Positions 6,581 through 64,000 of a DNA stretch of 64,000 bases are shown piece by piece (within the stretch, counting starts at the first letter, position 1; every line of letters begins with the position of its first letter). Below the pieces are notes generated by a model. That model searched no databases, had not been told where the DNA came from, and worked only from the letters and a program-made list of their open reading frames with translations. This DNA comes from Pseudomonas sp. MM213. GTDB taxonomy: Bacteria > Pseudomonadota > Gammaproteobacteria > Pseudomonadales > Pseudomonadaceae. The stretch is taken from assembly GCF_020423045.1 (NCBI RefSeq), contig NZ_CP081943.1:558001-622000 (forward strand). Direction: 5' to 3'. The translations under genes and the position numbers were made by a program.

Positions 6581-9500
6581 ATGGCCAATTTCAACAAGTC
6601 CGACCTGGAGTTCATCCTCAAACAAATTTTCATCGCAGAAGCACATGCCGACGGCGCCAGCCTCAGTGATTTGCTACCCAACAGTCAGGTGCCTTTCGGC
6701 CTGCGCACCGTCGATGGCAGCTACAACAACCTGGTGACCGGGCAAAGTGAGTTTGGCGCTGCGGACAATGCCTTCCCGCGCCTGCTGGACCCCTCGTTTC
6801 TGGCGTCATACTCCGGGACAGGGGATGTGATCGACCCACAACCACGGATTATCAGTAACCTGATCGTTGATCAGACCGCCAACAACCCGGCTGCGGTTGC
6901 GGCGAACGGCGGTGCCGATCCGGTCATCAGCCCAGGCCCCGACGGTGTCTTCGGCACGGATGACGACAAACAAGTGTTCTTCATCCCCAACCAGTCCGCG
7001 GACGCCGGACTGACTGCGGGCTTCAACTCGTGGATGACTTTCTTCGGCCAGTTCTTCGACCACGGCCTCGACCTGGTCAGCAAGAGCGCTACCGATTTTG
7101 TGTTTATTCCGTTGCAGCCGGACGATCCGTTGTTCGTGCCGGGCAGTCCGACCAACTTCATGGTGCTGCCACGGGCCGTGCGTACGGCCGGCGCGGACGG
7201 AATTGTTGGTACGACGGACGATGGGCAGCTCAACACCACCTCGCCGTTCGTAGACCAAAGCCAGACTTACAGCTCACACCCCTCGCATCAGGTATTTCTG
7301 CGCGAGTACGTCATCAACGCGGCAGGTGACCCTGTTGCAACCGGGCGCTTGATTACCAATCGCGATCTGGGCGCCGATGGCGAGTTCGGCACTGCCGATG
7401 ATGGCGGCGCCGAAAATGGCGGCATGGCGACCTGGGCAGTGGTCAAGGCCCAGGCCCGTGACATTCTCGGCATCAACCTGACCGACGCCGATGTGCACAA
7501 CGTGCCGCTGCTGGCGACCGACGCGTATGGCAACTTCATCCGTGGCCCGGGCGGTATGCCGCAGGTGGTGATGCGCATCAGCAACGGCGCAGACGGTATC
7601 GCCGGTACGGCGGATGACATCACGCAACTGGTCGAAGGCAACCGGGATGCTCCGATCAGTCTGGCCAACGCCGTGAGCACCGGGCATGGCTTCCTCGACG
7701 ACATCGCGCACAATGCCGCGCCGGTGCTCGTCGACGGGGTTTTGCAGGCGGATGGTGACACCGAAATCGGCAATGCGCAGCCAGTGGGCGCGGGCGGCAA
7801 CAACCTGACCTACGACAACGAACTGCTCGACGCTCACTACATTGCCGGCGATGGCCGGGCGAACGAAAACATCGGCCTGACCACTGTGCACCATGTGTTC
7901 CACTCCGAACACAACCGCCTGGTCCAGCAGTCCAAGGAAACCATCCTGGCCTCTGGCGATCTGGCGTTTCTCAATGAGTGGCTGGCAGACGACGTCGCGG
8001 CAATTCCGACTACTCCCGCCGAAATCGCAGGATTGGTGTGGGATGGCGAACGGCTGTTCCAGGCCGCCAAGTTCGGCACCGAGATGCAGTATCAGCACCT
8101 GGTGTTCGAGGAATTTGCGCGGACCGTTCAGCCGCAGGTCGACGAATTCCTTGCCCCCAACGGCTATGACACTTCAATCAACCCGGCCATCCTCGCCGAG
8201 TTCGCCCACGTGGTGTATCGCTTCGGTCACTCGATGCTGACCGAGACTGTCGATCGCTTCGACCCCGAATTCAATCCGGTCCTCTCTGACCCGAACAACC
8301 CTGACGCGCAGCTCGGTCTGATCGCAGCCTTCCTCAACCCTCTGGCATTTGCCGGCAGCGGGGCTACCGCTGACGAAGCGGCAGGGGCGATCATTCGCGG
8401 TGTGACCCGTCAGCTCGGCAACGAGATCGACGAGTTCGTCACCGAAGCGTTGCGCAACAATCTGCTGGGTCTACCCCTCGATTTGCCGGCCCTGAACCTG
8501 GCGCGTGGGCGCGACACTGGCATCCCTACGTTGAATGAGGCGCGGCGTGAGTTTTACCAGGCAACCGGCGACAGCCAACTCAAGCCGTACATCAGTTGGG
8601 CTGACTTGGCGGAAAACCTCAAACACCCCGAATCCCTGGTCAACTTCATCGCGGCCTTCGGTACTCACGGGGCATTGACTGCGGCCGATGTGGATACGCT
8701 GGTCGAGATGCGTGCGGTCGCTGCTGCCCTGGTGTTTGGCGGCAGCGCGGTGATCAACGCCGGCACTGCCGATGAGCGTACTTTTACCGCCACTGAAGAG
8801 GATCGCCTGGCATTCCTTAACAGCTCGGGCACCTACGCCATGGTCAATGGCGTCACCACCACCGGTGTCGACGACATCGACTTCTGGGTCGGCGGCCTTG
8901 CCGAAGAGAAGATGCCGTTCGGCGGTATGCTCGGCTCGACGTTCAACTTCGTGTTTGAAACCCAGATGGAGGCGTTGCAGAACGGCGACCGTTTCTACTA
9001 CCTGTCGCGTACGGCGGGCCTGAACTTCGGCACCGAGCTTGAGAACAACTCCTTCGCCAAGCTGATCATGCTCAACACCGATGTCACCCACCTGTCGAAC
9101 ACCGTGTTCCTGACACCGGCGTTCACCCTCGAAGTGACCCAGGCCAATCAGTTCACTGGCCTTGGCGTCGGCGGTCGTGCCGACCCGACGGGCGGCATCA
9201 TGATCAACGGCGTGGAAGTCGTGCCGCTGGTGATCCGCGACAACCCCGACACCGTGGGCACGGACAGTAATTTTCTGCATTACACCGGTGAAGATCATGT
9301 CGTCCTCGGCGGCACCGCCGCCGATGACATCATCATCTCCGGTGAAGGTGATGACACCGTTTACGGCGACGGCGGCAACGATGTCCTCGAGGGCGGCGCC
9401 GGGAACGATGCGGTACTTGGCGGCGCGGGTGATGACATCATCACCGACTCGTTCGGCGACAACCGCCTGGAAGGCAATGCCGGTAACGACGTGATCGTGG

Positions 9501-37340: not shown

Positions 37341-38261
37341 TCAAAGCAAGTGCTGCTCGATCCACTCTGCAACGGTGGTGGTTTTGATTTGCCGTTCGGC
37401 GTTGTAACTCTGCGCCTTGTCCCAAGCGACACCTTTGCCCTCGGCAAACACCGCCCGGTACTTGCGCGTCGGATCATCGGGTGCGGCGACCAGATCGGCC
37501 ATGAGCGCGGGCACTGTCCATTCGACACGCTTGATCGTGCGGTTCAGCAAGCGGTCGACAGTGTCGGCCAATTGCCCGTAGGTGAGGGTGTCACCGGTCA
37601 CGTAGACAACCTGATTCACCAGCACCGGATCGAACAGGATAACGGCGGTCAGCAGGCCGATGTCCTCCGGCGTGGTGACCGTCACGGCGGTGTTCCAACT
37701 GCCCAGGGCGCGTACGGTGTTCTGCGCCAGATCGACAACGCCGAACGCCGGCTCGAACAGGAAACTGGTGAACATGCCGGTCGAAATGATCAGCCATTGC
37801 AGTCGCGATTGAGCGCGCAGCAATTGGCGCACATCCAGTTGCTCGTCAAACAGATCTTGCGGGCTGCCTCGACCAATCACGTCGTAATCCACGCCGAACT
37901 GCCACGGCACATACCGTTTCACTTCCGACTGCAACGCGGCGCGGGCGAGTTTGACTTGCGTCCCGCTACCGGCGACGAAACCGAGACAACTGACCAGCGT
38001 ATCGAAACCGCTAAACCGCGCGGCAAGCTGCTCCATGGAATCGTTCACCACATCGCCCGGCAGCACCTCGATACCCAACGTGTCCAGTTCTTCGAGCGTT
38101 TGGCGTTTGTGCACGGACGTGGTATCGATGGCCGACGGTCGCAGCATCACCGTAACGCGAGCCTCCGGTCGAGCGGCCAGCTCGCGCAGTACGACCATGC
38201 CAAGCTCACCGGCACCTAGCACCAGAATATTTTCGGTTTTTGCAGGATTGAGCGGGTGCAT
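37341..38261 (-). CDS. NmrA-like NAD(P)-binding oxidoreductase
   Basis: A 306-residue protein with a Rossmann start ILVLGAGELGMVVLREL and the NmrA/isoflavone-reductase pattern (FDTLVSCLGFVAGSGTQ, VKRYVPWQFGVDYD, LQWLIISTGMFTSFLFEP). It lacks the YxxxK motif of classical short-chain dehydrogenases, as expected for this group, whose members are aromatic alcohol reductases or redox sensors. The ATG at 38261 follows GGGAG. It is divergent from an HxlR regulator. Confidence 0.85.
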   Translation of the reverse strand: MHPLNPAKTENILVLGAGELGMVVLRELAARPEARVTVMLRPSAIDTTSVHKRQTLEELDTLGIEVLPGDVVNDSMEQLAARFSGFDTLVSCLGFVAGSGTQVKLARAALQSEVKRYVPWQFGVDYDVIGRGSPQDLFDEQLDVRQLLRAQSRLQWLIISTGMFTSFLFEPAFGVVDLAQNTVRALGSWNTAVTVTTPEDIGLLTAVILFDPVLVNQVVYVTGDTLTYGQLADTVDRLLNRTIKRVEWTVPALMADLVAAPDDPTRKYRAVFAEGKGVAWDKAQSYNAERQIKTTTVAEWIEQHLL

Positions 38262-38342
38262 CGACAACTCCCAATGAATGATCAGCAACGATTGTTTTTC
38301 TATCCTGTCACCCTTGGCGAACGTTCAGAAGAAGGCACACGC

Positions 38343-38774
38343 GTGATACCGCATGATGAAATGAGTGAAGAAGAAGTGATCCGCGAGTCCCAAGCCGCGT
38401 GCGATGCGCTTAGCGCCGAGGACGATGGACTCAAGCGCGAAGTCCTGACCCATGCGGGCAATCGTTGGTCGCTGGGTATCGTTCATACCCTGGGGTGCGC
38501 GGGGAAGTTGCGTCACGCCGAAATCGGCCGGCGTTTGCAGGGCGTCACGCAACGCATGCTCACTCGCAGTCTGCGGCAGCTGGAACGTGATGGAATGATT
38601 GTGCGTTTTGATTACGGCGAAGTGCCGCCGAGGGTGGATTATGAGCTGACTCCGCTGGGGCGTAGCTTTTTGGCTCGGATGGTACCGTTGTGGACTTGGT
38701 TGTTGGAAAATGCGGAGGGTTTTCGGGCTGCGCGGGTGCGGTTTGACGGTGAGAACCGATCTGGCGAGACGTAA
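38343..38774 (+). CDS. HxlR-family winged-helix regulator
   Basis: A 143-residue regulator with the HxlR core: HAGNRWSLGIVHTLG, LRHAEIGRRLQGVTQRMLTRSLRQLE and VDYELTPLGRSFL. The GTG start at 38343 has AGAAGG seven bases upstream and leaves about 80 bp for a shared promoter with the divergent NmrA gene. An ATG at 38274 would leave only 12 bp, and a further ATG at 38361 is possible. It is the probable regulator of the NmrA-like gene. Confidence 0.83.
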   Translation: MIPHDEMSEEEVIRESQAACDALSAEDDGLKREVLTHAGNRWSLGIVHTLGCAGKLRHAEIGRRLQGVTQRMLTRSLRQLERDGMIVRFDYGEVPPRVDYELTPLGRSFLARMVPLWTWLLENAEGFRAARVRFDGENRSGET

Positions 38775-38890
38775 AAAGGAAAGGAGATGGGCGGAAGCGT
38801 TCGCCATACGTTCGCATTTGTGGCCCGGCCTCACCGACTCGTTTTGGCCGATTGCTACCTGACGGCAAGGACAGAATTGTTGTCGATTAA

Positions 38891-39208
38891 TCAGCCCTGT
38901 GAACGCTTTATTGTCCCCGCGAGCGCTGCGGCCTCATCGCGTAAGGCATCAAACTTATTGTTCAACTCAACATGCCCGGGCTTCCAGGCAAAAGCGCCGT
39001 TGATGCTGCTCTGACCAAGTATCAGGTCACTGAATGAACCCGCTCCACCGTAACCTGACAGTAAGTATTCAATGCCGTAGTAATCAGAGTTCATCACGTG
39101 TGCTCTGGCCTTGCGAATCCACTGGCTCCAGTGGGTATCACCATCGCTTTCAAGCACGGTGGCGAGTTGATCCAAAACGTCGATCAATTGTTCGGTCATT
39201 GGACCCAT
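38891..39208 (-). CDS. DUF6966-like small protein downstream of Fic
   Basis: A 105-residue acidic protein (start at 39208 or 39199). The segment MTEQLIDVLDQLATVLESDGDTHWSQWI and YYGIEYLLSGYGGAGSFSDLIL resemble DUF6966 as I recall it; such proteins often have immunity-like contexts. The gene starts 43 bp after the Fic stop on the same strand, so the two may be co-transcribed. It could be a partner of the Fic enzyme, but Fic of this class is already self-inhibited. Its role is unknown. Confidence 0.55.
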   Translation of the reverse strand: MGPMTEQLIDVLDQLATVLESDGDTHWSQWIRKARAHVMNSDYYGIEYLLSGYGGAGSFSDLILGQSSINGAFAWKPGHVELNNKFDALRDEAAALAGTIKRSQG

Positions 39209-39251
39209 GCTCCAAGTCTCCAAAACTGGAAAGCGTTTTTCCCTTGTACAA

Positions 39252-40445
39252 CTACTGAAACCGCCGATGCAAATCCGGAAAAATATCCTGGGCAAACCAG
39301 GCAGGCAGACCGGGTGTGACGATTCGGGATTTGGGCGTTTGGCTTTCCACCAAACCAACTTTGATCAGCCGCGACAGCTCATCGATTGCCGGGCGTGGGG
39401 TAAGGCCGGTGAAGGTCTTGAATTCGTTGCGCGGCAAGCTTCCTTGAGTGATGAGCGCAATCATTGCCGGCGCGCTTTCCGGGCGAATACCTTGTTGTAG
39501 AAGTTTCTCGTTGTTGTGAAACGCGCGTATGACACGCTCGCGAATTTGGGACGGGTCTACCGCTGCGGTCATGTAATCGACCTGATCGTGACAAACCTGC
39601 AGCATGAACTCGATGAACTCGAAATAGCGTCGCTGAGACAACTGACCTCGTCCGTCCAGATCACCCTCTCTTGGGCGGTCGGCCATGGTCAGGGCTGCGT
39701 AGTAATTCTGGTGTTGCCTTGCCAGCCCACGAGACAGCGACCACAACGTTGGTCGCAGTCCCAGACTCACCAATTGAAGATGAGTGACCAACCGGGCAAC
39801 GCGACCATTCCCGTCCGCGAAGGGATGAATCCAGGCAAGGCGATGGTGGTAGGCAAGCGCAGCAATCAGCTGGCGACGGGAATCTGTCTGCCGCCCGAAT
39901 CCTGCCTGAAGGTGCTGCAACATTCCGTCTACAGCGCGAGCGTCCGGAGCATCATGATTGCCAACGACAACGTTCTGACCTGTGATCGATCGCAGGATGC
40001 CGGGGTGCATGACCGAGCCATCTGACAACGTGCGCTCCGTGTCACTGGCGCCGCGAAAAAGCCGTTTGTGTGTCGTGCTCACAAGCTCGGGCGCAAACAT
40101 GTCACCCCAGTCGAACGGTGCACGCTGGCGCAACGCCCGTTCGAGCAACGCTTGCACCGCCATCTGTTCAACCGCGAGGTTTTTGAGCTGCTTGCGGTCT
40201 TTGACCGGCGCCGCTTGCGCTCTCTGCATCTCGGCGGGCTCGGTGTATTGCCCTTCGATCAGGTTCGAATAGTACGTATTGGTGATTTGCAGGAGACGGC
40301 CGAGGCGTGCAGCGGTTTCGGACGGCAAGCGGCCCGCTAGAAATTGCGTCTTTCTGGGCAGCGCGTCCGCGAGCGCAATGATCGATGGAGGCAACGTGTC
40401 AGGGAGAATGGGGTCGAGCCAGGTTTTTGATGTGATCAGGGACAT
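39252..40445 (-). CDS. Fic-family protein with N-terminal inhibitory helix (class II)
   Basis: A 397-residue protein. The Fic catalytic motif HPFADGNGRVAR (residues 207-218) is canonical and intact, so AMP transfer from ATP to a target hydroxyl is likely. An inhibitory motif SNLIEG (60-65, pattern S/TxxxEG) lies upstream, which places it in the self-inhibited class II. A winged-helix-like C-terminus (IALITQGSLPRNEFKTFTGLTPRPAIDELSRL) may bind DNA. The first ATG is at 40445; a longer TTG-started version to 40505 would put one regulatory repeat inside the gene. A decayed copy of its 3' end is at 32.9 kb. Confidence 0.87.
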   Translation of the reverse strand: MSLITSKTWLDPILPDTLPPSIIALADALPRKTQFLAGRLPSETAARLGRLLQITNTYYSNLIEGQYTEPAEMQRAQAAPVKDRKQLKNLAVEQMAVQALLERALRQRAPFDWGDMFAPELVSTTHKRLFRGASDTERTLSDGSVMHPGILRSITGQNVVVGNHDAPDARAVDGMLQHLQAGFGRQTDSRRQLIAALAYHHRLAWIHPFADGNGRVARLVTHLQLVSLGLRPTLWSLSRGLARQHQNYYAALTMADRPREGDLDGRGQLSQRRYFEFIEFMLQVCHDQVDYMTAAVDPSQIRERVIRAFHNNEKLLQQGIRPESAPAMIALITQGSLPRNEFKTFTGLTPRPAIDELSRLIKVGLVESQTPKSRIVTPGLPAWFAQDIFPDLHRRFQ

Positions 40446-40467
40446 AGCGGTTTTTACCGTATCAAAG

Positions 40468-40578
40468 TCTTCACATTTTATTTCACATACTGACTTGATG
40501 AACAAGCGCTAATTTATTGGGCTGTAGAGGTTTTATTGGAGCTTTAGCGAAAATTATCTTCACATTTTATTTCACATA
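40468..40578. promoter_or_regulatory. Two identical 22-bp sites upstream of the Fic gene
   Basis: The same 22 bases occur at 40468-40489 and 40557-40578, 89 bp apart. Each contains two TGTGAA half-sites (read on the minus strand, TGTGAAATAAAATGTGAA) spaced 11 bp, one helical turn. They lie 23 and 112 bp before the Fic ATG, as expected for operators, perhaps for the Fic protein's own winged-helix domain. Confidence 0.5.
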
Positions 40579-41028
40579 TTTTTTGTGGAAATCGCTTCGG
40601 CCGACTGGCTCACAAATGGATCCTTCGCCGTGTTGACGTGTCGTTCGCAACTGCCGAAAAACGGGTGCGCATTCGCAGCCATATCAGGCAGCTGCACAAA
40701 CTGTAGGAGCGAGCTTGCTCGCGATGGACCAAAGAACCCCGCGTTACTCCAGGAACCCCGCGGCTACGTTCAAGACCATCGCGAGCAAGCCCCGGCAGCT
40801 GAGTCGACCTGTGCGGCGGGATGGGTAGTGCCAGTCATGGGGACTATGCTGTTGCTGGACCAGTTCACGGTTGAATAGACTGCCTTCTTTGGCGTCTCGC
40901 GAGCAGCGTCACGTCTACTTCTTGATTGTTTTTTGCCCCGAGGAATATCTGGCCTGTCGTATGGCCGCCCTCAGGTACCACTATGAACCGCCGCCACGTT
41001 ATCAGCTGATTAGAAAGATGGAGCTTCT
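40579..41028. other. Intergenic region with one degenerate REP
   Basis: No gene was recognised. A REP pair at 40701-40795 has an intact left arm, but the right arm lacks the CTCCTACAG end. An ORF crossing it has no ribosome-binding site. Confidence 0.5.
40701..40795. repeat. REP inverted pair, right arm truncated
   Basis: Left arm CTGTAGGAGCGAGCTTGCTC and right CCATCGCGAGCAAGCC; the right end is replaced by CCGGCAGCTG. Confidence 0.8.
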
Positions 41029-41325
41029 GTGATCCCAGGATATCGCACCCGCATTTACCGTTTCATCGGTGCACTGTTACTCCTACTCGTTGCTTTGGTG
41101 TTGGCTCTGGAACTATATGACGCTCTGACCACTTGGCAATTAGACGCATTGACAGGGCCTCGTCGAAACACGATTAACGAACACCTTGTATTCGACGAAC
41201 AACCAGAGCGCTTCGTTTTGTATCTGCTGCAAAAAGTCATGTTTTTCATTTTAACCGTCGTAGTAGGGCTCGTTATGCGATGGGAGGCTCTGTCGGGGCG
41301 ACGGGCGTACGAGCATCGGCAATAA
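41029..41325 (+). CDS. Small membrane protein, two helices
   Basis: A 98-residue protein started at GTG with GGAG five bases upstream. Two hydrophobic segments: FIGALLLLLVALVLALELY (about 12-30) and VLYLLQKVMFFILTVVVGLVM (about 63-83), with a charged loop between (GPRRNTINEHLVFDEQ). The family is not recognised. It overlaps the next ORF by 46 bp, which suggests they are co-translated, but one of them may be spurious. Confidence 0.55.
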   Translation: MIPGYRTRIYRFIGALLLLLVALVLALELYDALTTWQLDALTGPRRNTINEHLVFDEQPERFVLYLLQKVMFFILTVVVGLVMRWEALSGRRAYEHRQ

Positions 41326-41582
41326 CGGCAGTTTGCTCACCGTTTGCGGTCCGAGCCTTTTTGATTGCAGCGGTGCTTTTAGTGCTTGCCGTTCTCTACA
41401 TCGGGTACTACGAAGCGCTTGAAGATGGTGACATCGAGACCATCCTGTTTATCAAGAAACACCCAACTGTTCGGATGAAGTTCTACAACATCCACGCCAA
41501 TGATGGGGAGATCAGAAGAGTAGAGCGCCTTACGGAGGAGGAGCGGAAGTGGATTGTCGACTACTGCAGATACAGATTATGA
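41280..41582 (+). CDS. Small membrane protein with one helix and hydrophilic tail
   Basis: A 100-residue ORF: one membrane segment (AFLIAAVLLVLAVLYIGYY, about 26-44), then a charged domain DGDIETILFIKKHPTVRMKFYN..., ending RLTEEERKWIVDYCRYRL. The tail looks like real protein, with Glu/Arg-rich helix. The start is uncertain because the first codons overlap the previous gene. No family was recognised. Confidence 0.5.
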   Translation: MGGSVGATGVRASAITAVCSPFAVRAFLIAAVLLVLAVLYIGYYEALEDGDIETILFIKKHPTVRMKFYNIHANDGEIRRVERLTEEERKWIVDYCRYRL

Positions 41583-41674
41583 ATCGACACGGCGTTAAAG
41601 ACTCATGACGACGTTGAAGTTTGCAGGAAGAAATAACCAGCGGTTGGGCAACACGGGTGGTCAGATCCAGAGAC

Positions 41675-41704
41675 AAAAAACGGGCGCTTGTAGCGCCCGT
41701 TTTC
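41675..41704. terminator. Bidirectional terminator
   Basis: AAAAAA-ACGGGCGCT-TGT-AGCGCCCGT-TTT, a 9-bp perfect stem. It lies between convergent genes and is nearly identical to the hairpin at 32853-32873. Confidence 0.85.
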
Positions 41705-41706
41705 AT

Positions 41707-41979
41707 TCACTCCTTCGCTTGCGCTCGCAATCGCCGACCAATCACATCCATCAAGTCACACCCATCGCGCAACGGAATGGCCAGCAGTTTGGAGAAGTCT
41801 GACAACACCACCGTGTCGCAACCAATCTCGGCGCGAAACGCGATATTTTCCAGCACCTGAGTAACTGCGCGAATTCGGTAGTCAGCTGCGGCTTGCAATA
41901 CGTCGAGTGGGGCTTCGGTGTCGATGAGCAGGGAGGCCGGGACCAGGTCGATTCCGGTGAGGGGCATGTATCTTTCCAT
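41707..41979 (-). CDS. DUF3077-like small protein
   Basis: A 90-residue protein started at 41979 with GGAG eight bases upstream. The segment PASLLIDTEAPLDVLQAAADYRIRAVTQVLE and the ending LRDGCDLMDVIGRRL resemble Pseudomonas DUF3077 proteins, a lineage-specific family of unknown function. It is preceded by a long structured leader (41980-42230). It may be regulated through that RNA. Confidence 0.65.
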   Translation of the reverse strand: MERYMPLTGIDLVPASLLIDTEAPLDVLQAAADYRIRAVTQVLENIAFRAEIGCDTVVLSDFSKLLAIPLRDGCDLMDVIGRRLRAQAKE

Positions 41980-42230
41980 TAGTGAAACTCCGATCAAGGC
42001 AAAGTTTGACTGTCCCTCAATCGTCGCCAAACGAATGGGTGACAGCTGTACGCAGGTTGGCGAACCGGGATCGGAAAACCGGCAGACCCGAAGGTCTCCC
42101 GCGCACAGCTGCCATAAAGACAGCTTTGCGGGCATGCAAAAGCGACTGCATTAAAGCACAGCGCTTTTGCATCCGACCGATCAGGTCGCCAAACCCGAAT
42201 CGCCATATTGGGCGACGGGTCGGACTATAG
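41980..42230 (-). ncRNA. Structured 5' leader of the DUF3077-like gene
   Basis: Read on the minus strand, the region before the gene folds into several perfect hairpins in a row: TGCAAAAGCG with CGCTTTTGCA (42171-42135), CCCGC...GCGGG enclosing AGCTG/CAGCT (about 42130-42098), and AGACC-TTCG-GGTCT (42097-42084), a C(UUCG)G tetraloop. A TATAGT at 42229-42224 may be the -10 of its promoter. I recall similar sequences before DUF3077 genes in other Pseudomonas. It could be a cis-regulatory RNA or a mobile repeat. Confidence 0.5.
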
Positions 42231-42437
42231 GCTTCATCAGAACAGCGGGGAAGGTGACGCATTCCGAGGTTTGTGTAGGAAATTTTATGGTGGTCCTAGG
42301 ACCGATACGCCCCTTCCGTTAGCGACTGCTATCGACTAGAAGCAGACCTTTGTCAAAAGGAGTAACTCCTGTCAACACCGGTCCACTGAGGTGTCTACGA
42401 AGCGTGGGCGATTCACCCGCCACCGCATGATGGCATG

Positions 42438-42467
42438 TTGACTCTTATCTCCAACCAATGCCAGAAT
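42438..42467 (+). promoter_or_regulatory. Candidate sigma-70 promoter of the small RNA / RT unit
   Basis: TTGACT (42438-42443), 18-base spacer, CAGAAT (42462-42467). This predicts a transcription start near 42474, just before the hairpin-rich stretch upstream of the reverse transcriptase gene. A perfect palindrome GGTCCTAGGACC at 42292-42303 lies farther upstream. Confidence 0.4.
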
Positions 42468-42473
42468 CCCGCC

Positions 42474-42638
42474 ATGCCTCTAGGGGGTGAGCGGGTGCCC
42501 TAAAGCTCTGGATTTAGCTATCAGAGAGATGTGCGGCAGAAGTAGAGAAAGCCTCGAAACTGCTGGATTTAGCGATTTATTTTTGCGTGGTTGCATCCGT
42601 GGGAAAAGGCTCAGCATTCGTGTTGGGCTTTTTTTTGA
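42474..42638 (+). ncRNA. Candidate small RNA upstream of the reverse transcriptase gene
   Basis: About 165 bases lie between the predicted start and a clear intrinsic terminator that sits only 13 bp before the RT start codon: AAAAGGCTCAGC-ATTCGT-GTTGGGC followed by eight T (42604-42638). Inside are hairpins CTCTG/CAGAG (42506-42526) and GCAG/CTGC enclosing GAG/CTC (about 42535-42564), and an 11-bp direct repeat CTGGATTTAGC (42508-42518, 42563-42573). An RNA immediately 5' of an RT with its own terminator is the layout of retrons and several DRT systems. Boundaries are estimates. Confidence 0.5.
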
Positions 42639-42651
42639 TCCAGAGGAACCT

Positions 42652-44148
42652 ATGATATTAGAAAAGCAACTGCTTAAATTTATCCAGGCTGAGGCGGAAA
42701 AGCTAAGTGATCGCCACCACGCTTACCACAACTCAGTTAACTTAGAGTATGAGCGTAAATCTAGAAGGTTGTTGGACCCAGGAGAAAAAGTTGTCACGCT
42801 GCCGCCACAATGGGGCGTGGATAAAAAATTTAACCCTTTTTACGTAAATAAAAATCGCAAGAAAATCGCGCATTCAATAGCAGGCAAAATACTTTCGGGC
42901 ACTTATATTCCAAATGCACCTGCATCTATGGAGGTTCGCAAGCCATCGGGTGGGTATCGCACCGTATCAATTTATCAAATCCCAGATGCTGCGGTGTCAT
43001 CTCTGTTTTATCATCAATTGCTCAAAAAAAATAAACATAGATTAAGCTCCTTTGCTTACGCTTATAGAGATGACCGTAACGCTCATTTTGCGATTCAAGA
43101 TATTTCACTTGAGCTAGGTCAAGCTCCTAGGATATTTGTTGCAGAGTTCGACTTTTCAAAGTTTTTTGATAATATTCAGCACGACTATCTTTTTCAGCAA
43201 TTTGACCAAAACGGTTTTTCGATCAGCGAAAGTGAACGCAAGGTAATCCAAGCTTTTCTAGGGGCATCCGGCAAAGGTATACCGCAGGGCACGTCAATAT
43301 CTCTGTTTTTAGCAAATCTAGTTTGCTGGCAACTCGACAAGAAGCTTGAACTTGCGGGGTTGAGATTTGCTCGTTATGCAGACGACACAATTATCTGGGC
43401 AAATGATTATCAAAAAATCAACGTAGCCTATGAAATTGTATATAAGTTTTCGGTGGAAACTGGCGTTGCGATCAATCTAGAAAAATCTGAGGGTATAAGT
43501 TTGCTATGCCCTAAGGATCATAAAAGTGAGTTTGCGCAATGCAAGGATTCTGTAGACTTTCTAGGATACAAACTCTCGAAAGAAAAAATATCGATAAAAG
43601 ACAAGTCTGTAGTAAAAATAAAAAAAGAAATCAGCTATATATTGTATAAGCACCTAATCCAACCGCTTAAATCATCAGTCCTTAGATCGTTGACCATCCC
43701 AGCGAACAATAAAGATTCTGATCTGCTACGAGCAATCTCCGAAATAAGAAGATTTCTTTACGGAGACTTGACTGATGAAATGATATCCAACTATATAAAT
43801 GGTGCTAGCAGTCGGATTTTCTTCAAAGGCACGATGAGTTTCTATCCGCTTCTCAATGACGAACTCCAGCTCCGCAACCTCGATACATGGTTGGTACTAG
43901 CAGTATTCAAATCTATTAAGCTCCGAATGAAACTTTTGGCTAAACACGGTTATAATAGGAGTCATTCAGCTCCGTTTAATATACGTAAAAAAGATATTGC
44001 GTCTACGTTGCGAAAACAGAAAGTAGATGGAAAGAAAAAGCTACAGCTTCCCAGCTTTTTCTTTATATATCAGGCCTTAAGAAAAGGGTTGTCTGACATG
44101 GGCGTTGAAGGGGTCATGAATCCGAAGTCAAATATGTACAATTATTAG
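42652..44148 (+). CDS. Reverse transcriptase of unassigned (UG/DRT-like) defence type
   Basis: A 498-residue protein. The ATG at 42652 has GAGGA upstream; the frame extends to 42487, but that part overlaps the candidate RNA and lacks similarity. RT motifs in order: RKPSGGYRTVSIYQIPD (96-112), AEFDFSKFFDNI with catalytic D167, GIPQGTSISLFLANL (209-223), FARYADDTIIW with Y242-A-D-D245, and DFLGYKL (302-308). Residues 310-498 form a helical extension without recognised domain. The first 90 residues (WGVDKKFNPFYVN) are also specific to this type. It has no maturase or endonuclease domain, no retron VTG motif and no intron domain V nearby. The gene is AT-rich against a GC-rich background, indicating transfer. 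Class within UG/DRT families is not determined. Confidence 0.88.
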   Translation: MILEKQLLKFIQAEAEKLSDRHHAYHNSVNLEYERKSRRLLDPGEKVVTLPPQWGVDKKFNPFYVNKNRKKIAHSIAGKILSGTYIPNAPASMEVRKPSGGYRTVSIYQIPDAAVSSLFYHQLLKKNKHRLSSFAYAYRDDRNAHFAIQDISLELGQAPRIFVAEFDFSKFFDNIQHDYLFQQFDQNGFSISESERKVIQAFLGASGKGIPQGTSISLFLANLVCWQLDKKLELAGLRFARYADDTIIWANDYQKINVAYEIVYKFSVETGVAINLEKSEGISLLCPKDHKSEFAQCKDSVDFLGYKLSKEKISIKDKSVVKIKKEISYILYKHLIQPLKSSVLRSLTIPANNKDSDLLRAISEIRRFLYGDLTDEMISNYINGASSRIFFKGTMSFYPLLNDELQLRNLDTWLVLAVFKSIKLRMKLLAKHGYNRSHSAPFNIRKKDIASTLRKQKVDGKKKLQLPSFFFIYQALRKGLSDMGVEGVMNPKSNMYNY

Positions 44149-44169
44149 AAATTTCATCTGGTGTGAACA

Positions 44170-44208
44170 GGGAGCGGATTTATTTAATCAAAAAATAAAT
44201 CCGTCCCC
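44170..44208. repeat. Dispersed palindrome, terminator-like (copy 2)
   Basis: GGGAGCGGATTTATTT and AAATAAATCCGTCCCC around an A-rich loop. It matches the palindrome at 18491-18530. It sits between the convergent RT and OLD genes and can terminate both. Confidence 0.7.
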
Positions 44209-44225
44209 ATTGTTGTTAAACCTAG

Positions 44226-46196
44226 CTATTCATCATTCTGAGCCCTAAAGCGAATGTTATCTTTGAGGCCGTTTTCCTCCGCCCATTTCCGCACAATCGT
44301 CCTTAAAGTCAGCAAAAAGTCATTTCCTTCAAGACTTTCTTTAGAGAACGGCTCATGCTGTTCTGAGGACATTAGGTCTGTCAGGATGTCTTGGACAGCT
44401 TTAGCTAAATCATCTTGCTCGGATATTTGAAGATAAGCATTCAGTGGTTTGTCTTTCGACGCTTCGTCTCCGCCTAAAAAGCGCTCGAAGTCTGGAATGC
44501 TGATTCGATGGCGAACCGATACCCCTGCTTGCCTAGCCGACAAAACTGCGTCTCGAATTTTCTTATTTTCTGTCCACATTCCATTTTTATGACCATTCGT
44601 TTTATAAGGAGGATCCGCATCGTGCACCAGTCCAAAGTCTATTTTGAAGTGGGTCATAACTTTTATTAACGGTACTAAAATTGCCTTGCCTCGGGCACGA
44701 ATTATAGTGACTTGGTCAATCAACTCATGTTGGCGCTCAATGATCGATGCCATGAATGCGGCATGCTCCGTGTCTCCTTCAACGAGTATCGGATACGATC
44801 CAAAAAACACTTCTGAAAAACTGGGGTCGATGTGTTGTAAAGCTTGAAGACGTTTTTTGTCGTCCCCTTCAAACTGTATCAAGTCAGATCGATACGTCTT
44901 CGGCGCTATAGGTGAGTCATCAGCATCTTGAGGCCGTTCGAGCCGTACTATTGTAGTGTGATCTTCAAAAGGGTTTATAAAGTATGGCGAGTGCGTGGTC
45001 ATAATGACCTGCCAGTCAGGGTTCTCTGCCAATTTATACAGATGACGTTGGGCGGCACGAGCAGCCATTGGGTGTAAGGCATTTTCCGGCTCGTCAATCA
45101 AAAGTAGGTATCCAGGAAATGCCGGATCGTCTGGGCTTTCTGGAATGGGGGCTCCACTTTCATGAGCATCAAGCCGCGCTTGAGCATGAGCTAATAACTC
45201 AGCCAACTGATCGGCGTTCTCTCCTTTAGGTGGTTTTGAAACTTTCTTGGTAAGTTCAGAAATCTCCTTTTCTACTCTTTTTTTGTATTCGTCTCGTACT
45301 TCTTTGTCTCGGTTAAGTTCGTTGTGCACTTGTAGCATCGCCCAAAATAGAGCTCTTCTTGCTCCGGTACCTTGCTGTATCAGCGCGGTATCGGCAGCAC
45401 CATCTTTGACCCTCAGGCTAGATCCGCTTTTGACAAGATCAGTTACCTTAGGTGCTAAAGGAGCAGCGCCGACTTTCAGGCTGACATCAAGCATAGGGAA
45501 CACACTTTTGAATCCAGTCGAAACTCTGCCAGCGATTTCGTTGAAGTGTTCTTGGTGCTGTTCACTAAGCAAATTCATGCTTTGTGAAACGCTAGCTATG
45601 GCTATTGCTAGATCCGACGCAGGGTCGTTCCGGGCTTTTTCCAATCCGGCTAGAAGTGGTGAAAGGGCGAGAGTAAGGAGCATTTCCTCTGTCTTGGCCG
45701 CATCGTCTAGAGATCCAATTCGAAGAGAGCGCGGCAGTCGAGAGTTGAAAACGGGATCAGCGCCTCCGGCCTTACCGTCTTCTGCCCAATCGCCGTTCCC
45801 TTCAGGTCCGGCAGTCGGATCCCAGGTCGATCTGACTTTCTGAAAGCTCGGAGCGCACCACTGCCATCGACTTTTTACGATCTGAAGACCATCTTTTTCG
45901 TACTTCCATTTTGCATCTATGTTCCCAATGCCTTCAGGAATATGCACCTCAAGGAGAACCTCAGAAGGTTGGTCATCTAATGCGTGCTGGTAGCGATCTC
46001 GTGATACGTCAAATGCAGGCGATCCACCACCTCTGGCGAGCTCATATGCCCTGAGAATCGTCGATTTGCCGGCGTTATTTTTCCCTACTAGGCAAACAAT
46101 ATTATCGAGCTCAATTTGTACGCCTTCGTCCCCGATACACCCTATGTTGCGGGCCGTCAGTCGCAGCAATTTTGAACGATTTTCTACTGGCATCAT
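44226..46196 (-). CDS. OLD-family ATP-dependent nuclease (AAA ATPase + TOPRIM)
   Basis: A 656-residue protein. The N-terminal ABC-type ATPase has Walker A GKNNAGKST (38-46) and Walker B YLLLIDEPENALHP, with the D-loop/H-region TTHSPYFINP. The C-terminal TOPRIM domain carries ILVEGDTEHAAF (about 470) and FGLVHDAD (about 525), the Mg-binding acids. This is the stand-alone class 1 OLD layout; the gajAB-type helicase partner is absent. OLD proteins include phage P2 Old and other anti-phage nucleases, so defence is a reasonable inference. It is convergent with the RT gene and may be an independent defence gene of the same island. The first codon is followed by a second Met. Confidence 0.9.
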   Translation of the reverse strand: MMPVENRSKLLRLTARNIGCIGDEGVQIELDNIVCLVGKNNAGKSTILRAYELARGGGSPAFDVSRDRYQHALDDQPSEVLLEVHIPEGIGNIDAKWKYEKDGLQIVKSRWQWCAPSFQKVRSTWDPTAGPEGNGDWAEDGKAGGADPVFNSRLPRSLRIGSLDDAAKTEEMLLTLALSPLLAGLEKARNDPASDLAIAIASVSQSMNLLSEQHQEHFNEIAGRVSTGFKSVFPMLDVSLKVGAAPLAPKVTDLVKSGSSLRVKDGAADTALIQQGTGARRALFWAMLQVHNELNRDKEVRDEYKKRVEKEISELTKKVSKPPKGENADQLAELLAHAQARLDAHESGAPIPESPDDPAFPGYLLLIDEPENALHPMAARAAQRHLYKLAENPDWQVIMTTHSPYFINPFEDHTTIVRLERPQDADDSPIAPKTYRSDLIQFEGDDKKRLQALQHIDPSFSEVFFGSYPILVEGDTEHAAFMASIIERQHELIDQVTIIRARGKAILVPLIKVMTHFKIDFGLVHDADPPYKTNGHKNGMWTENKKIRDAVLSARQAGVSVRHRISIPDFERFLGGDEASKDKPLNAYLQISEQDDLAKAVQDILTDLMSSEQHEPFSKESLEGNDFLLTLRTIVRKWAEENGLKDNIRFRAQNDE

Positions 46197-46426
46197 TCCT
46201 CCGATGAATGTAATTGCACTAACAGCAGGTATTCATTTGTGAATTGCCGCGTTTTGGGACATACAGTCAGGCATGCTCCTCTGAGTGCGGAGACTCAGAG
46301 CCTAGCTCGAAGCCAGCAAAATGCCATGACGTAACACATTGCTTGATTTCTAATGGGTGCTATTAGCAATTTGAAGTCACTACTAGCCTAAGCGCCCCCG
46401 CGTATTCGAGATGGAACTTCCCCTCA

Positions 46427-47785
46427 ATGCAAACCCCCACCACCCAACACCCCCTCTGGAAAACCTACCTCCTTTTCCTCACCCCCATGGTCCTCTCCAA
46501 CTTCCTCCAATCCATGTCGGGCACCGTCAACAGCATCTACATCGGCCAAATGCTCGGCACCCAAGCCCTGGCTGCCGTCTCCGGCATGTTCCCCATCGTC
46601 TTCTTCTTCATCGCCCTGGTCATCGGCCTCGGCGCAGGTGCGAGCGTTCTCATCGGCCAAGCCTGGGGCGCGCGGGAACCGCATCTGGTGAAAACCATCG
46701 CCGCTACCACGTTGCTGCTGGGCGCAATCATCGGCCTGACCGCCGCGGTGCTGGGCAGCGTATTCGCAAGGCCAGCCTTGCAAGGCTTGGGCACTCCGGC
46801 TGACGTGCTGGACGACGCTGTGTCCTACGCTCACGTGATGATGTGGATCATGCCGTCGCTGTTGGTCTACGTCCTGTTCACCCAACTGCTGCGCGGGGTG
46901 AGCGATACGGTGTCGCCGCTGATCGCATTGGTGGTGTCGACGTGTATCGGCCTGGCGCTGACGCCGGCGTTGATTCGCGGTTGGTTCGGGTTGCCGATGT
47001 TGGGGATTCAGAGTGCGGCGTATGCGGGGTTGGTGGGGAATTTGTCGGCGATGGGGTGGCTGGCGTGGCGGTTGATTCGGCGGGGGCATCCGTTGGCGCC
47101 GGATCGGGAGATGTTTGCGGCGATGCGCCTGGATCGGGTGATTCTCGGCAAGGTGTTGCGCATCGGTTTGCCGACCGGGTTGCAGATGGTGGTGTTGTCG
47201 GTGTCGGAGTTGGTGATTCTGGCGTTGGTGAATCAGCACGGTTCGCAGGCGACGGCGGCGTATGGGGCGGTGACGCAGATCGTCAATTATGTGCTGTTTC
47301 CAGCGTTGTCGATTGCGATCACGGCGTCGATTCTTGGGGCGCAGGCGATTGGGGCAGGGCGCATTGAGCGGATGGGGCCGATTCTGCGCACCGGGTTGTT
47401 GATCAACGTGTGCCTGACCGGTGGGTTGGTGGTGTTGGGTTACCTGTTGTCGCACTGGTTGCTGGGGTTGTTTCTGACGGACGATTTGACTCGGGCGAAG
47501 GCCGAGCACTTGTTGCACATCATGCTCTGGAGCCTGTTGGTGTTTGGCTTTCAGGCGATTGTCGGCGGGATCATGCGGGCCAGCGGCACGGTGTTGGTGC
47601 CGATGGCGATTTCGATTGTGTGCGTGCTTGGCGTGCAGTTGCCGATGGCGTATGTGCTGGACGGGCAGTTCGGGTTGCAGGGTGTGTGGATGGCGTTTCC
47701 GGTGGCGTATTTGGGGATGCTGATGTTGCAGACGCTGTATTACAAACTAGTGTGGCAACATCAGAAGATTGAACGCCTAGTGTAG
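46427..47785 (+). CDS. MATE-family multidrug/sodium exporter
   Basis: A 452-residue inner-membrane protein with twelve predicted helices and the duplicated MATE halves (MVLSNFLQSMSGTVNSIYIG in the first half and IGLPTGLQMVVLSVSELVIL in the second). It would export cationic compounds in exchange for Na+ or H+. Codon use changes sharply inside the gene: the first ~450 bp are rich in C-ending codons, and after about 46990 codons end mostly in G or T (TTG, GTG, GCG). The frame is continuous, so this is not a frameshift. Start ATG follows GGAA at nine bases. Confidence 0.92.
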   Translation: MQTPTTQHPLWKTYLLFLTPMVLSNFLQSMSGTVNSIYIGQMLGTQALAAVSGMFPIVFFFIALVIGLGAGASVLIGQAWGAREPHLVKTIAATTLLLGAIIGLTAAVLGSVFARPALQGLGTPADVLDDAVSYAHVMMWIMPSLLVYVLFTQLLRGVSDTVSPLIALVVSTCIGLALTPALIRGWFGLPMLGIQSAAYAGLVGNLSAMGWLAWRLIRRGHPLAPDREMFAAMRLDRVILGKVLRIGLPTGLQMVVLSVSELVILALVNQHGSQATAAYGAVTQIVNYVLFPALSIAITASILGAQAIGAGRIERMGPILRTGLLINVCLTGGLVVLGYLLSHWLLGLFLTDDLTRAKAEHLLHIMLWSLLVFGFQAIVGGIMRASGTVLVPMAISIVCVLGVQLPMAYVLDGQFGLQGVWMAFPVAYLGMLMLQTLYYKLVWQHQKIERLV

Positions 47786-48340
47786 ATTGGATCCCTTATT
47801 TCAATCCTGGCCCTAATAAGTATGACTGTTTTAGTTGGTGGGGCCCTGAATGCGAGTTGGTCTCTATTGCAGATATCGTTAGTGAGGTAGCAACTAATGG
47901 ATCCAATGGAAGGATCTAAGGCCCCATGTAATTTACCAGGCCAGTTGTCACGTGGCTTTCAGGGAAGTTGAGTATTATCCAACGAGGCGAGTTGCTTTTG
48001 CTGAACTAACCGTTTGTCGGTGGTTTGCACGAAAAATGAACATTTTTGCTTTAATGCCCTCTGATACTTCAGCGCGTCGCCATGACCCGCCCCTGCAGCT
48101 GCAGAAAGAGAAGTGGATCCCGAACCTCATATGCATTGAATGCAAATGAGGATTTTTTTACCTGAAATTCAGGAGCCAACAAATAGCCGAACTTGATTTG
48201 CCGGGCAAATTAATCGGTTCAGCCGCGCCAAATCACTGATTTGGCTTGTCTTTTATCAGTCGGATCTCGTAGGGCCTGTAACTCGATTAGAGCCCCGCTG
48301 AACTAATGATTCGCACTGTATAATCAGTTGGAGAAGTACC
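47786..48340. other. Intergenic region with a terminator-like hairpin, no clear gene
   Basis: A 555-bp, AT-richer gap. A hairpin GCCAAATC-ACT-GATTTGGC with TTGTCTTTT lies at 48227-48255. A short ORF at 47952-48149 has no ribosome-binding site and no protein-like character. A lost gene or small RNA is possible. Confidence 0.45.
48227..48255 (+). terminator. Orphan terminator-like hairpin
   Basis: An 8-bp perfect stem followed by a T-rich stretch, about 85 bp before the next gene start. The transcript it ends is not identified. Confidence 0.5.
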
Positions 48341-48988
48341 GTGTCTATAAATACAATTATGAGTCTGGTCGAAAACAAAGAGTGTATGGAATTTGTGCGG
48401 TTGGGTGTTGTTTATGCTCACTTGGTCGCCTGTTGTGTTGCCATTGGTTTGGTGTTGACCAGTGATATAGCCATGGTTAAGAACTTGTTGAAGGGCAAGG
48501 TGTTGTCGGAGCACGATAATGCGCATCTGGAAAGTCTCCAGACGTCTGTCGTCGTTGCATTGATTGCGTTGTGGGTCACCGGTATTGCAATTGTGGGTAT
48601 TGATTACCTGGAGAAGGGAGTCGAGTACTTCATGAACCCGAAACTTCAAGCCAAAGTGATCATTGTCATGTTGCTGACGTACAACGGCATCTTGTTGCAT
48701 CGCCTGGTGTTGCCGGCTATGCAGAAGGCCGGATCGCTGCTCAAGCTCGAGTTTAGCGCTCGGATGCTGGCGCTGTTCTGCGGCTCGCTGTCGGCGGTGT
48801 CCTGGATGTATGCGGCCCTGCTGGGTGTCGGACGCCCGTTGGCCTGGAAGTATTCACTCTCTGAACTGTTGATGGCGTATCCGCTGTTGATTGCACTGGG
48901 TTTCCTGGCAATGCTGGCATTGACTCAACGAGTGATAAAACAGAACGACGATGTGGTGCCGCAGCGGGCTGTTGCGAGTGCTTGCTAA
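48341..48988 (+). CDS. Multi-pass membrane protein of unknown function
   Basis: A 215-residue protein started at GTG, with GGAG seven bases upstream. There are five to six membrane helices, for example FVRLGVVYAHLVACCVAIGLVL, VVVALIALWVTGIAIVGI, AKVIIVMLLTYNGILLHRLV and LLMAYPLLIALGFLAMLAL. Conserved-looking His residues lie in helices (YAHLV, LHRLV), which could bind haem or metal, but I do not recognise the family. It is a single gene with its own terminator. Confidence 0.7.
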   Translation: MSINTIMSLVENKECMEFVRLGVVYAHLVACCVAIGLVLTSDIAMVKNLLKGKVLSEHDNAHLESLQTSVVVALIALWVTGIAIVGIDYLEKGVEYFMNPKLQAKVIIVMLLTYNGILLHRLVLPAMQKAGSLLKLEFSARMLALFCGSLSAVSWMYAALLGVGRPLAWKYSLSELLMAYPLLIALGFLAMLALTQRVIKQNDDVVPQRAVASAC

Positions 48989-49029
48989 GTTGTAACGTTC
49001 GCTGAACTTTCCGGACACCTCCGGTTTAA

Positions 49030-49068
49030 AAAGAGGGCCACCCGTAACAGGGTGGCTCTTTTTTTTTG
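49030..49068 (+). terminator. Rho-independent terminator
   Basis: AGAG-GGCCACCC paired with GGGTGGCTCT around GTAACA, followed by eight T. Confidence 0.9.
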
Positions 49069-49201
49069 CGTCAAAAGTTGCTCCAGAAAGTCGAGTCGTC
49101 GGTGTAGGCCGGCGGGCTTGCTGTCGTCCACCTTCGGACTGACAATCCAGAGTGACGGTGATGTAAACCGACAGGCTTGATCGCCTGGGGAGGTTTTCCA
49201 C

Positions 49202-49879
49202 ATGAGTCCTTCATCGACAACCATTCTGCAAGACCGCGCCGATGCCGGTCGGCGGCTGGTGGCGCCGTTGCTCAAGTACGCGCATCGCCCCGATGTCATC
49301 GTCCTCGCCTTGCCCCGTGGCGGTGTGCCGGTGGCGTATGAAGTGGCGACCGCGCTGGACGTTCGCCTCGACCTGATGCTGGTGCGCAAACTGGGCGTTC
49401 CGACCCATCAGGAGCTGGCGATGGGCGCGATTGCCAGCGGCGGTATTCAAATCCTCAATGAGCATACGCTGCGGGCACACCCGATTGATCAGGCCGCGTT
49501 CGATGCCGTGGTCGCACGGGAAACCCGCGAACTGCTGCGGCGTGAGCAGGTGTATCGCGGAACGCGCGCGCCGGTGCAGCTCAAGGATCAGGTGGTGATT
49601 CTGATTGACGATGGCCTGGCGACGGGCGCTTCGATGAGGGCGGCGATTCACGCGGTGCGCGCACAGGCGCCGGCGCGCATTGTCGTCGCGGTGCCGGTGG
49701 CGCCGGTTGAAACGGCGGAGGCGCTGCGCGGTGAGGTGGACGAGTTGGTGTGCCCGATCACTGCTGATTGGTTTATGTCGATCGGGCATTGGTACATGGA
49801 TTTTTCCCAGACTGCGGATGCCGAGGTCATCGGTTTGTTGACGCGGGCGTGGCAGCGGCAGGGGAGTGGGGCGGCGTAA
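49202..49879 (+). CDS. Phosphoribosyltransferase-domain protein
   Basis: A 225-residue protein with type I phosphoribosyltransferase fold. The PRPP-binding motif is VILIDDGLATGASM (around residue 135), and the pyrophosphate loop is ALPRGGVPVAYEVA. The insertion AMGAIASGGIQILN after VRKLGVPTHQE is typical of the Pseudomonas/actinobacterial group of unknown substrate. It may salvage a base or act as a regulator. It is a single gene with terminators on both sides. Confidence 0.88.
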   Translation: MSPSSTTILQDRADAGRRLVAPLLKYAHRPDVIVLALPRGGVPVAYEVATALDVRLDLMLVRKLGVPTHQELAMGAIASGGIQILNEHTLRAHPIDQAAFDAVVARETRELLRREQVYRGTRAPVQLKDQVVILIDDGLATGASMRAAIHAVRAQAPARIVVAVPVAPVETAEALRGEVDELVCPITADWFMSIGHWYMDFSQTADAEVIGLLTRAWQRQGSGAA

Positions 49880-49897
49880 ACATTTAGGGTTTGAGAA

Positions 49898-49931
49898 ATG
49901 GGTCATCCGTTGCAGGGTGGCCCATTTTTTT
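49898..49931 (+). terminator. Rho-independent terminator
   Basis: ATGGG(T)CATCC paired with GGGTGGCCCAT around GTTGCA, then seven T. Confidence 0.85.
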
Positions 49932-49963
49932 GGGCTGGAAGTTGCGTTGATCTTGAGATCGCT

Positions 49964-50036
49964 ATCGCCAGCAAGCCGGCTCCTACAAGGATCGGGTTTG
50001 CACGCGGACATTGTAGGAGCCGGCTTGCCGGCGATG
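49964..50036. repeat. REP inverted pair
   Basis: ATCGCCAGCAAGCCGGCTCC at the left and GGAGCCGGCTTGCCGGCGAT at the right, 26 bp apart. Confidence 0.9.
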
Positions 50037-63411: not shown

Positions 63412-63564
63412 GTTCGGTGCCTCGCTGTGGCTCGGCATTCCCTCGCTCCGGTCCTGCTCCGTGGGCCCGCCGCCATCGGCCATCCATGGCCGGGGGCGGC
63501 TAACCCGGCATCCATGCCGGGTTGCCCACTGCGCAGAACCTCCACTCGGCCTCTCGAGGGGGCG
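63412..63564. repeat. Left arm of 153-bp inverted repeat
   Basis: Complementary to 63848-64000 over 153 bp with only about six differences. It contains inner palindromes CCGCCGCCATCGGCCATCC and CCCGGCATCCATGCCGGG. It resembles long intergenic repeats known in P. fluorescens genomes. Confidence 0.9.
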
Positions 63565-63847: not shown

Positions 63848-64000
63848 CGCCCCCTCGAGAGGCTGAGTGGAGGTTCTGCGCAGTGGGCAACCCGGCATGG
63901 ATGCCGGGTTAGCCGCCCCCGGCCATGGATGGCCGATGGCGGCGGGCCCACGGAGCAGGACCGGAGCGAGGGCATGCCGAGCATTAGCGAGGCACCGAAC
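63848..64000. repeat. Right arm of 153-bp inverted repeat
   Basis: Inverse of 63412-63564, running to the window edge, so the true arm may be longer. The spacer is 283 bp. Confidence 0.9.

Follow-up and report, generated by a model that had tools for sequence, protein, structure and literature searches.

What does a reverse transcriptase (RT) gene that follows its own structured RNA represent in this Pseudomonas genome? The original prediction saw here a possible new DRT/UG-type defence system. Within the window (the whole 64,000-nucleotide stretch analysed), we confirmed an intact RT behind a gene for a structured RNA whose end resembles a terminator. By sequence comparison, the locus looks like a Pseudomonas copy of the known DRT9 system, not a new one, with a slightly changed template stretch as its sole unusual point. 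The interpretation given in the original prediction is thus partly supported. The features discussed below are the following (window coordinates).

39252–40505, minus strand: Fic protein, upstream (PADLOC SoFic model, 98 bits)
42438–42467, plus strand: promoter-like TTGACT-18-CAGAAT ahead of the ncRNA (9/12 consensus match, TG before the second hexamer)
42475–42636, plus strand: DRT9 ncRNA with putative ends (leave-clade-out covariance model R1, match 42475–42634)
42476–42488, plus strand: SL1, 5′ hairpin (helix 1, both-side changes in 3/5 pairs, 12 sequences)
42491–42600, plus strand: SL2, long-range stem around the middle domain, arms ∼42491–42498 and 42593–42600 (helix 2, both-side changes in 5/8 pairs)
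42580–42584, plus strand: candidate poly-U template, U5, within UUUAUUUUUG at 42576–42585 (aligned with U4, 123–126, of the studied RNA, as L015)
42606–42636, plus strand: SL6, terminator-like hairpin with T8 tail (fold; inside the R1 match)
42652–44148, plus strand: DRT9 reverse transcriptase, 498 amino acids (PADLOC Drt9, 679 bits; PDB 9ioa, 582 bits over 2–498; YADD 242–245, Y25, Y496, Y498)
44226–46196, minus strand: OLD-family nuclease (PADLOC Old, 202 bits)

The reverse transcriptase belongs to the DRT9 family

The RT reading frame is intact from its ATG at 42652 to the last base of the stop codon at 44148 and encodes 498 residues with an intact YADD, as had been predicted. The gene was also correctly described as AT-rich: the bin at 43001–44000 has a G+C content of 0.38, the minimum of the 64 one-kilobase bins of the window.

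The profile search proposed with the original prediction gave Drt9 as the best PADLOC model (679 bits, residues 4–496), followed by a family with 105 bits. Among proteins of solved structure, PDB 9ioa, whose sequence is the same in six PDB entries, ranked first (582 bits over residues 2–498; runner-up 80 bits), and the two proteins are 54% identical from end to end. Pfam returned RVT_1 as the sole match, and eight RT-type matches in NCBIfam (group II, Drt2, Drt3a, retron, and others) each fell far under their own cut-offs. Because the family-model match is full length and the match to the solved DRT9 protein runs end to end, the RT is, judged by its sequence, a full-length member of the DRT9 (UG28) family, and the suggestion of a new type does not hold.

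Several other assignments were rejected by score. These were retron St85 (NCBIfam, 68.7 bits versus a cut-off of 235), a group II intron RT/maturase (NCBIfam, 130.6 bits versus a cut-off of 300), DRT2 (Drt2, 83 bits in two partial stretches, versus 679 for Drt9), and DRT10 (UG17; RT_UG17, 103 bits versus 679 for Drt9). The SLATT family (Pfam) was unmatched in six window proteins scanned, including two small upstream ORFs.

We aligned the window RT with 24 proteins that we chose from 120 listed (alignment A1). The YADD at residues 242–245 is identical in 25/25 proteins. The N-terminal 90 and C-terminal 190 residues, previously considered to match no nameable type, correspond to the DRT9 N-terminal extension, with Y25, and to the priming tail, which ends in Y496-N-Y498. 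A tyrosine is found at position 25 in 22 of the 25 proteins, and at positions 496 and 498 in 22 and 23, respectively. According to excerpts of the work on E. coli DRT9, Y25 makes a stacking contact with the RNA and activity is almost lost without it, and loss of Y496 together with Y498 abolishes cDNA synthesis and defence (PMC12489045).

A structured RNA precedes the RT gene

The predicted fold of 42472–42640 consists of hairpins, the last of which is long and carries T8 at 42629–42636. The original prediction had described hairpin-rich sequence ending in a strong intrinsic terminator 13 bp before the RT; the terminator-like hairpin with its T8 stands, the gap from the last T to the RT ATG measures 15 bases, and the hairpin (SL6) is absent from the output of a simple terminator scan. 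In excerpts of published work, SL6 is suggested to serve termination (PMC12483538). Hexamers comparable to the promoter-like sequence ahead of the ncRNA lie at the equal place in the related loci L007 and L008 (by eye). The number of promoter-like sites in the region is close to that expected by chance (6 found versus 4.6 expected).

As a single sequence, the ncRNA does not fold exceptionally well (z = −1.34; 24/200 shuffles fold equally well or better), and Rfam, at gathering scores, left it unmatched. The reality of the ncRNA rests on its homologues, namely on a leave-clade-out model match and on covarying helices, not on the single-sequence fold.

For the comparison we aligned 12 distinct usable upstream RNAs. 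Left out of the RNA counts were L011 (contig edge, 110 nt upstream only, template motif absent), L002, L012, and L014 (upstream regions duplicating L008, L020, and L015), as well as L003–L006, L017–L019, and L024–L032 (partial low-identity RT matches, not treated as DRT9). Since the RT encoded at the E. coli locus L014 shows no difference from the solved protein across 499 residues and the protein annotated in L015 is the same, L014 and L015 represent the studied RNA.

RNAalifold on the 12 RNAs yielded SL1 and SL2 with 13 pairs, 8 of which show both-side changes. Paired cells in these helices amount to 95.5% (versus 74.6 when shuffled), and cells with both-side changes number 33 (versus 12.3), with 0/500 shuffles as high. 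The covariation score is 0.72, versus 0.30 upon shuffling and 0.11–0.26 upon sliding. Two weaker measures gave 8 versus 6.0 for pairs with double changes (13/500 shuffles as high) and 26 versus 20.9 for further pair types (2/500 shuffles as high). Part of the margin is expected because the structure was derived from the same alignment. Both helices, SL1 and SL2, covary.

Covariance model R1 was built from six well-aligning RNAs (alignment A4; L009, L020, L010, L016, L021, and L023). Both the window clade and the E. coli type of the studied RNA are left out of it, and the latter was thus free to serve as a positive control. Searched against the 64-kb window up to E = 10, R1 gave one match, at 42475–42634 on the plus strand (29 bits, E = 7e-5). 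When the model was run on 32 loci, the region ahead of the RT was recovered in 15/16 DRT9 loci; the exception was L011 at its contig edge. Left-out controls were recovered at 9e-11 (L013), 1e-9 (L014 and L015), and 5e-10 (L022, where the match begins 36 nt downstream of the expected 5′ start); in the window clade, E values were 5e-7 (L002/L008), 2e-4 (L001), and 3e-3 (L007; 24 bits, larger search). Three extra matches at E 0.16–0.48 are chance-like. The covariance search over the upstream regions of homologues that was proposed with the original prediction has thus returned a conserved structured RNA, and the proposal that a DRT/UG-type RT, comparable to DRT9, is preceded by a structured RNA of its own is borne out by the Drt9 and R1 matches.

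Like DRT9 (UG28) of E. coli and Salmonella enterica (9ioa), described in excerpts as having a single protein, an RT of ∼499 residues (PMC12483538, PMC12489045), the window locus has an upstream ncRNA with the order SL1, SL2, template loop, and SL6. Unlike those systems, it lies in a Pseudomonas host, differs in its template loop (see below), and lacks a clear SL3; a clear counterpart of this E. coli hairpin was not found in the window RNA by eye. DRT2 (UG2) also combines an RT with an upstream ncRNA, and the U tract of DRT9 lies at the place where reverse transcription starts in DRT2, whereas DRT2 copies a template of ∼120 nt (excerpts of PMC12483538).

Two further features of the RNA were noted. 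A 14-nt direct repeat, CTGGATTTAGC[T/G]AT, occurs at 42508–42521 and 42563–42576, with one copy in a hairpin loop and the other immediately 5′ of the template, likewise in L007 and L008. The self-complementary UAGCUA was seen by eye in the loop 42506–42526.

The template tract is altered in the window clade

In the Salmonella system, U123–U126 in an internal loop template poly-dA, and changes in the U-rich 3′ end are without effect (excerpts of PMC12483538); the four template uracils are numbered 124–127 in the corresponding part of PMC12489045. The window sequence at this place (42576–42585) is TTTATTTTTG and lies ∼50 nt upstream of T8. The original prediction had considered T8 as a possible poly-U template. 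T8 belongs to the 3′ hairpin and is ruled out as template by the alignment to the studied RNA, which points to 42580–42584, and by the published null effect of the 3′ U-rich end.

A new DRT/UG type with T8 as its RNA template would account for a template loop unlike the commonest DRT9 form and for protein ends that could not at first be placed. However, the full-length Drt9 match, the identity to the solved DRT9 protein, and the recovery of the RNA with a model built from DRT9 RNAs of other loci argue against a new type, and the dispensable 3′ end of the studied system argues against T8, so that this reading has next to no chance of being correct.

A tract of at least four U is present in 12/12 usable RNAs. 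The template core is UUACUUUUA at 6/12 loci (L020, L009, L013, L010, L015, and L022), UUAAUUUUA at 2/12 (L023 and L016), UUAUUUUUA at 1/12 (L021, with a broken RT gene), and UUAUUUUUG at 3/12 (window, L007, and L008). The template of the window clade, UUA-UUUUU-G, differs from the commonest one, UUA-C-UUUU-A, which is also that of the E. coli and Salmonella systems, at two positions; this variant is represented by three copies with RTs that are 91–94% identical. On this alignment, we regard the template change in the clade as real but small. The codons of read-through N termini (...SDLLLRG...) lead us to guess at a C-U4-G template in proteins P0016 (65% identical) and P0037 (60%). The U5 template is unmentioned in the portions of the DRT9 literature covered; a published sequence logo of 201 homologues, outside those portions, may already include such variants.

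The altered loop raises the question of the product. A DRT9 enzyme might not make pure poly-dA if copying ran past the U tract of the U3-A-U5-G loop and then realigned, which would yield A-rich repeats containing T at regular intervals, as in DRT10. The loop UUUAUUUUUG fits the A-B-A′ pattern of DRT10 templates (excerpts of PMC12632851), and its form is kept in all three clade members. Against this stand the scores of RT_UG17 (DRT10) and Drt9 (103 versus 679 bits), the priming residues, which are tyrosines as in DRT9 and serine in DRT10 (PMC12632851), the retained U tract, and the presence of U before the tract at other loci as well (UUAC/UUAA); we consider such a product highly improbable. 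DRT10 (UG17) shares with this locus an RT, a templating ncRNA, and, by analogy, probably protein priming; unlike the window locus, it has an essential SLATT protein together with its priming serine (as given in the same excerpts).

The neighborhood is largely not shared with the DRT9 loci compared

At the DNA level, the two Pseudomonas loci closest to this one are similar to it over 42333–44154 (86.7%) and 42425–44148 (83.3%), roughly the promoter, ncRNA, and RT. The rest of 38000–50000 is unmatched in those two loci, save short C4-RNA-like matches to L034/L002.

The adjacent OLD-family nuclease, a defence-type protein, could be the effector of the RT system, as it lies 77 bp past the end of the RT gene, in convergent orientation. 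Yet it is encoded on the opposite strand, the DRT9 system as published has no component besides the RT and the ncRNA (excerpts of PMC12489045), and no relative at E ≤ 1e-5 was found at 14 DRT9 loci compared, of which L002/L034 and L014/L015 are redundant and some have flanks of only 0.1–4 kb. An effector role for the nuclease is therefore extremely improbable. Of the seven window proteins tested besides the RT, none recurred at the 14 loci, except for one distant Fic relative (35%) at L038, which we take as defence-island company. We suggest that the Fic protein and the OLD nuclease near the RT form a small defence island.

A C4 antisense RNA (Rfam) maps to 42035–42119 on the minus strand, 0.35 kb upstream of the ncRNA. 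It overlaps the start of a 142-residue ORF (41707–42135) that is unmatched in Pfam, PADLOC, and NCBIfam. Three C4 copies are found in L034 (a 19-kb stretch, another Pseudomonas DRT9) and none in five other stretches searched. Two TwoAYGGAY RNA matches, at 63463–63527 (minus strand) and 63885–63949 (plus strand), have equal scores of 51.9 bits on opposite strands and resemble an inverted repeat.

Occurrence of relatives

In the protein database, at least 2391 relatives of the RT at E ≤ 1e-3 were found among 8000 scored candidates; the closest RT among the matches listed is 94% identical and carries the source label Pseudomonas asplenii. Relatives P0002–P0004, with RTs 88–91% identical, come from metagenome loci. 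Genomes with relatives (counts including the centre genome itself) number 5/398 in a genus sample, 3/398 in a phylum sample, and 2/369 in a class sample, 1/152 and 1/237 around G720, 2/240 around G565, and 2/199 in a second genus sample, both already known. Five loci, including a single full-length relative, came from named genome contigs. Among 5426 E. coli genomes, the window as query retrieved 2, and a search with the E. coli locus retrieved 3 (one partial). Plasmids gave one protein match (1 record) and no DNA match, no protein in the phage records matched at E ≤ 1e-60, and viral contigs gave 3 low-identity loci with a single query and 11 loci with an alignment, 2 of which are full-length relatives. 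No paper on DRT9 in Pseudomonas was found in our literature search.

Two damaged loci were observed. E. coli VE-T9 (NZ_AP027963.1:1049869-1050450) carries a 582-base DRT9 locus remnant with 99.8% identity to the E. coli locus; it spans one third of the query, and its annotation is hypothetical protein. In L040 (genome of L021), an insert of ∼812 bp at ∼8152–8963 with transposase-like open frames breaks the DRT9 RT gene; we presume it to be IS5-like.

Proposed mechanism and implications

Taking the protein and RNA comparisons together, the locus is very probably a complete two-part DRT9 antiphage system with a mild template variant. RT family membership, ncRNA homology, the catalytic, priming, and template positions, and a genomic exonuclease I gene (PF08411, 343 bits) are all present. 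Points against the DRT9 reading are the score of only 29 bits for the window RNA (24 bits for its close relative L007), a fold that alone is no better than chance, the two altered positions in the template loop, and the want of a clear SL3 counterpart.

By homology to the Salmonella/E. coli and Photobacterium systems, we infer the product, oligomer, regulation, and defence as follows. The ncRNA of ∼160 nt would bind the RT and set the U tract at 42580–42584 at the YADD active site, and a C-terminal tyrosine (Y496 or Y498) would prime DNA synthesis. The RT may then recopy the same few U residues into a long poly-dA attached to the protein. The RT–RNA complex is probably oligomeric, a hexamer being the form typical of DRT9, with the RNA as scaffold of the RT oligomer. 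Exonuclease I, which degrades the product in the studied DRT9 system (excerpts of PMC12483538), would remove poly-dA in healthy cells; in infected cells, phage factors would let poly-dA build up, and growth would stop before the phage multiply.

It is quite unlikely that the change from C-U4-A to U5-G beside the upstream U3-A gives the clade a product of poly-dA with regular dT, or another step length; if true, this would be a natural bridge from the homopolymer synthesis of DRT9 to the tandem-repeat synthesis of DRT10. The precise number of uridines needed is named as future work in the excerpted DRT9 paper (PMC12483538); the U5 template seen here, which occurs naturally and has altered neighbours, offers a ready-made way to test this number. 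Apart from its template loop, the locus would be an ordinary, already explained defence system; it adds to the family a DRT9 copy that shares 54% identity with the solved protein and carries a naturally altered loop.
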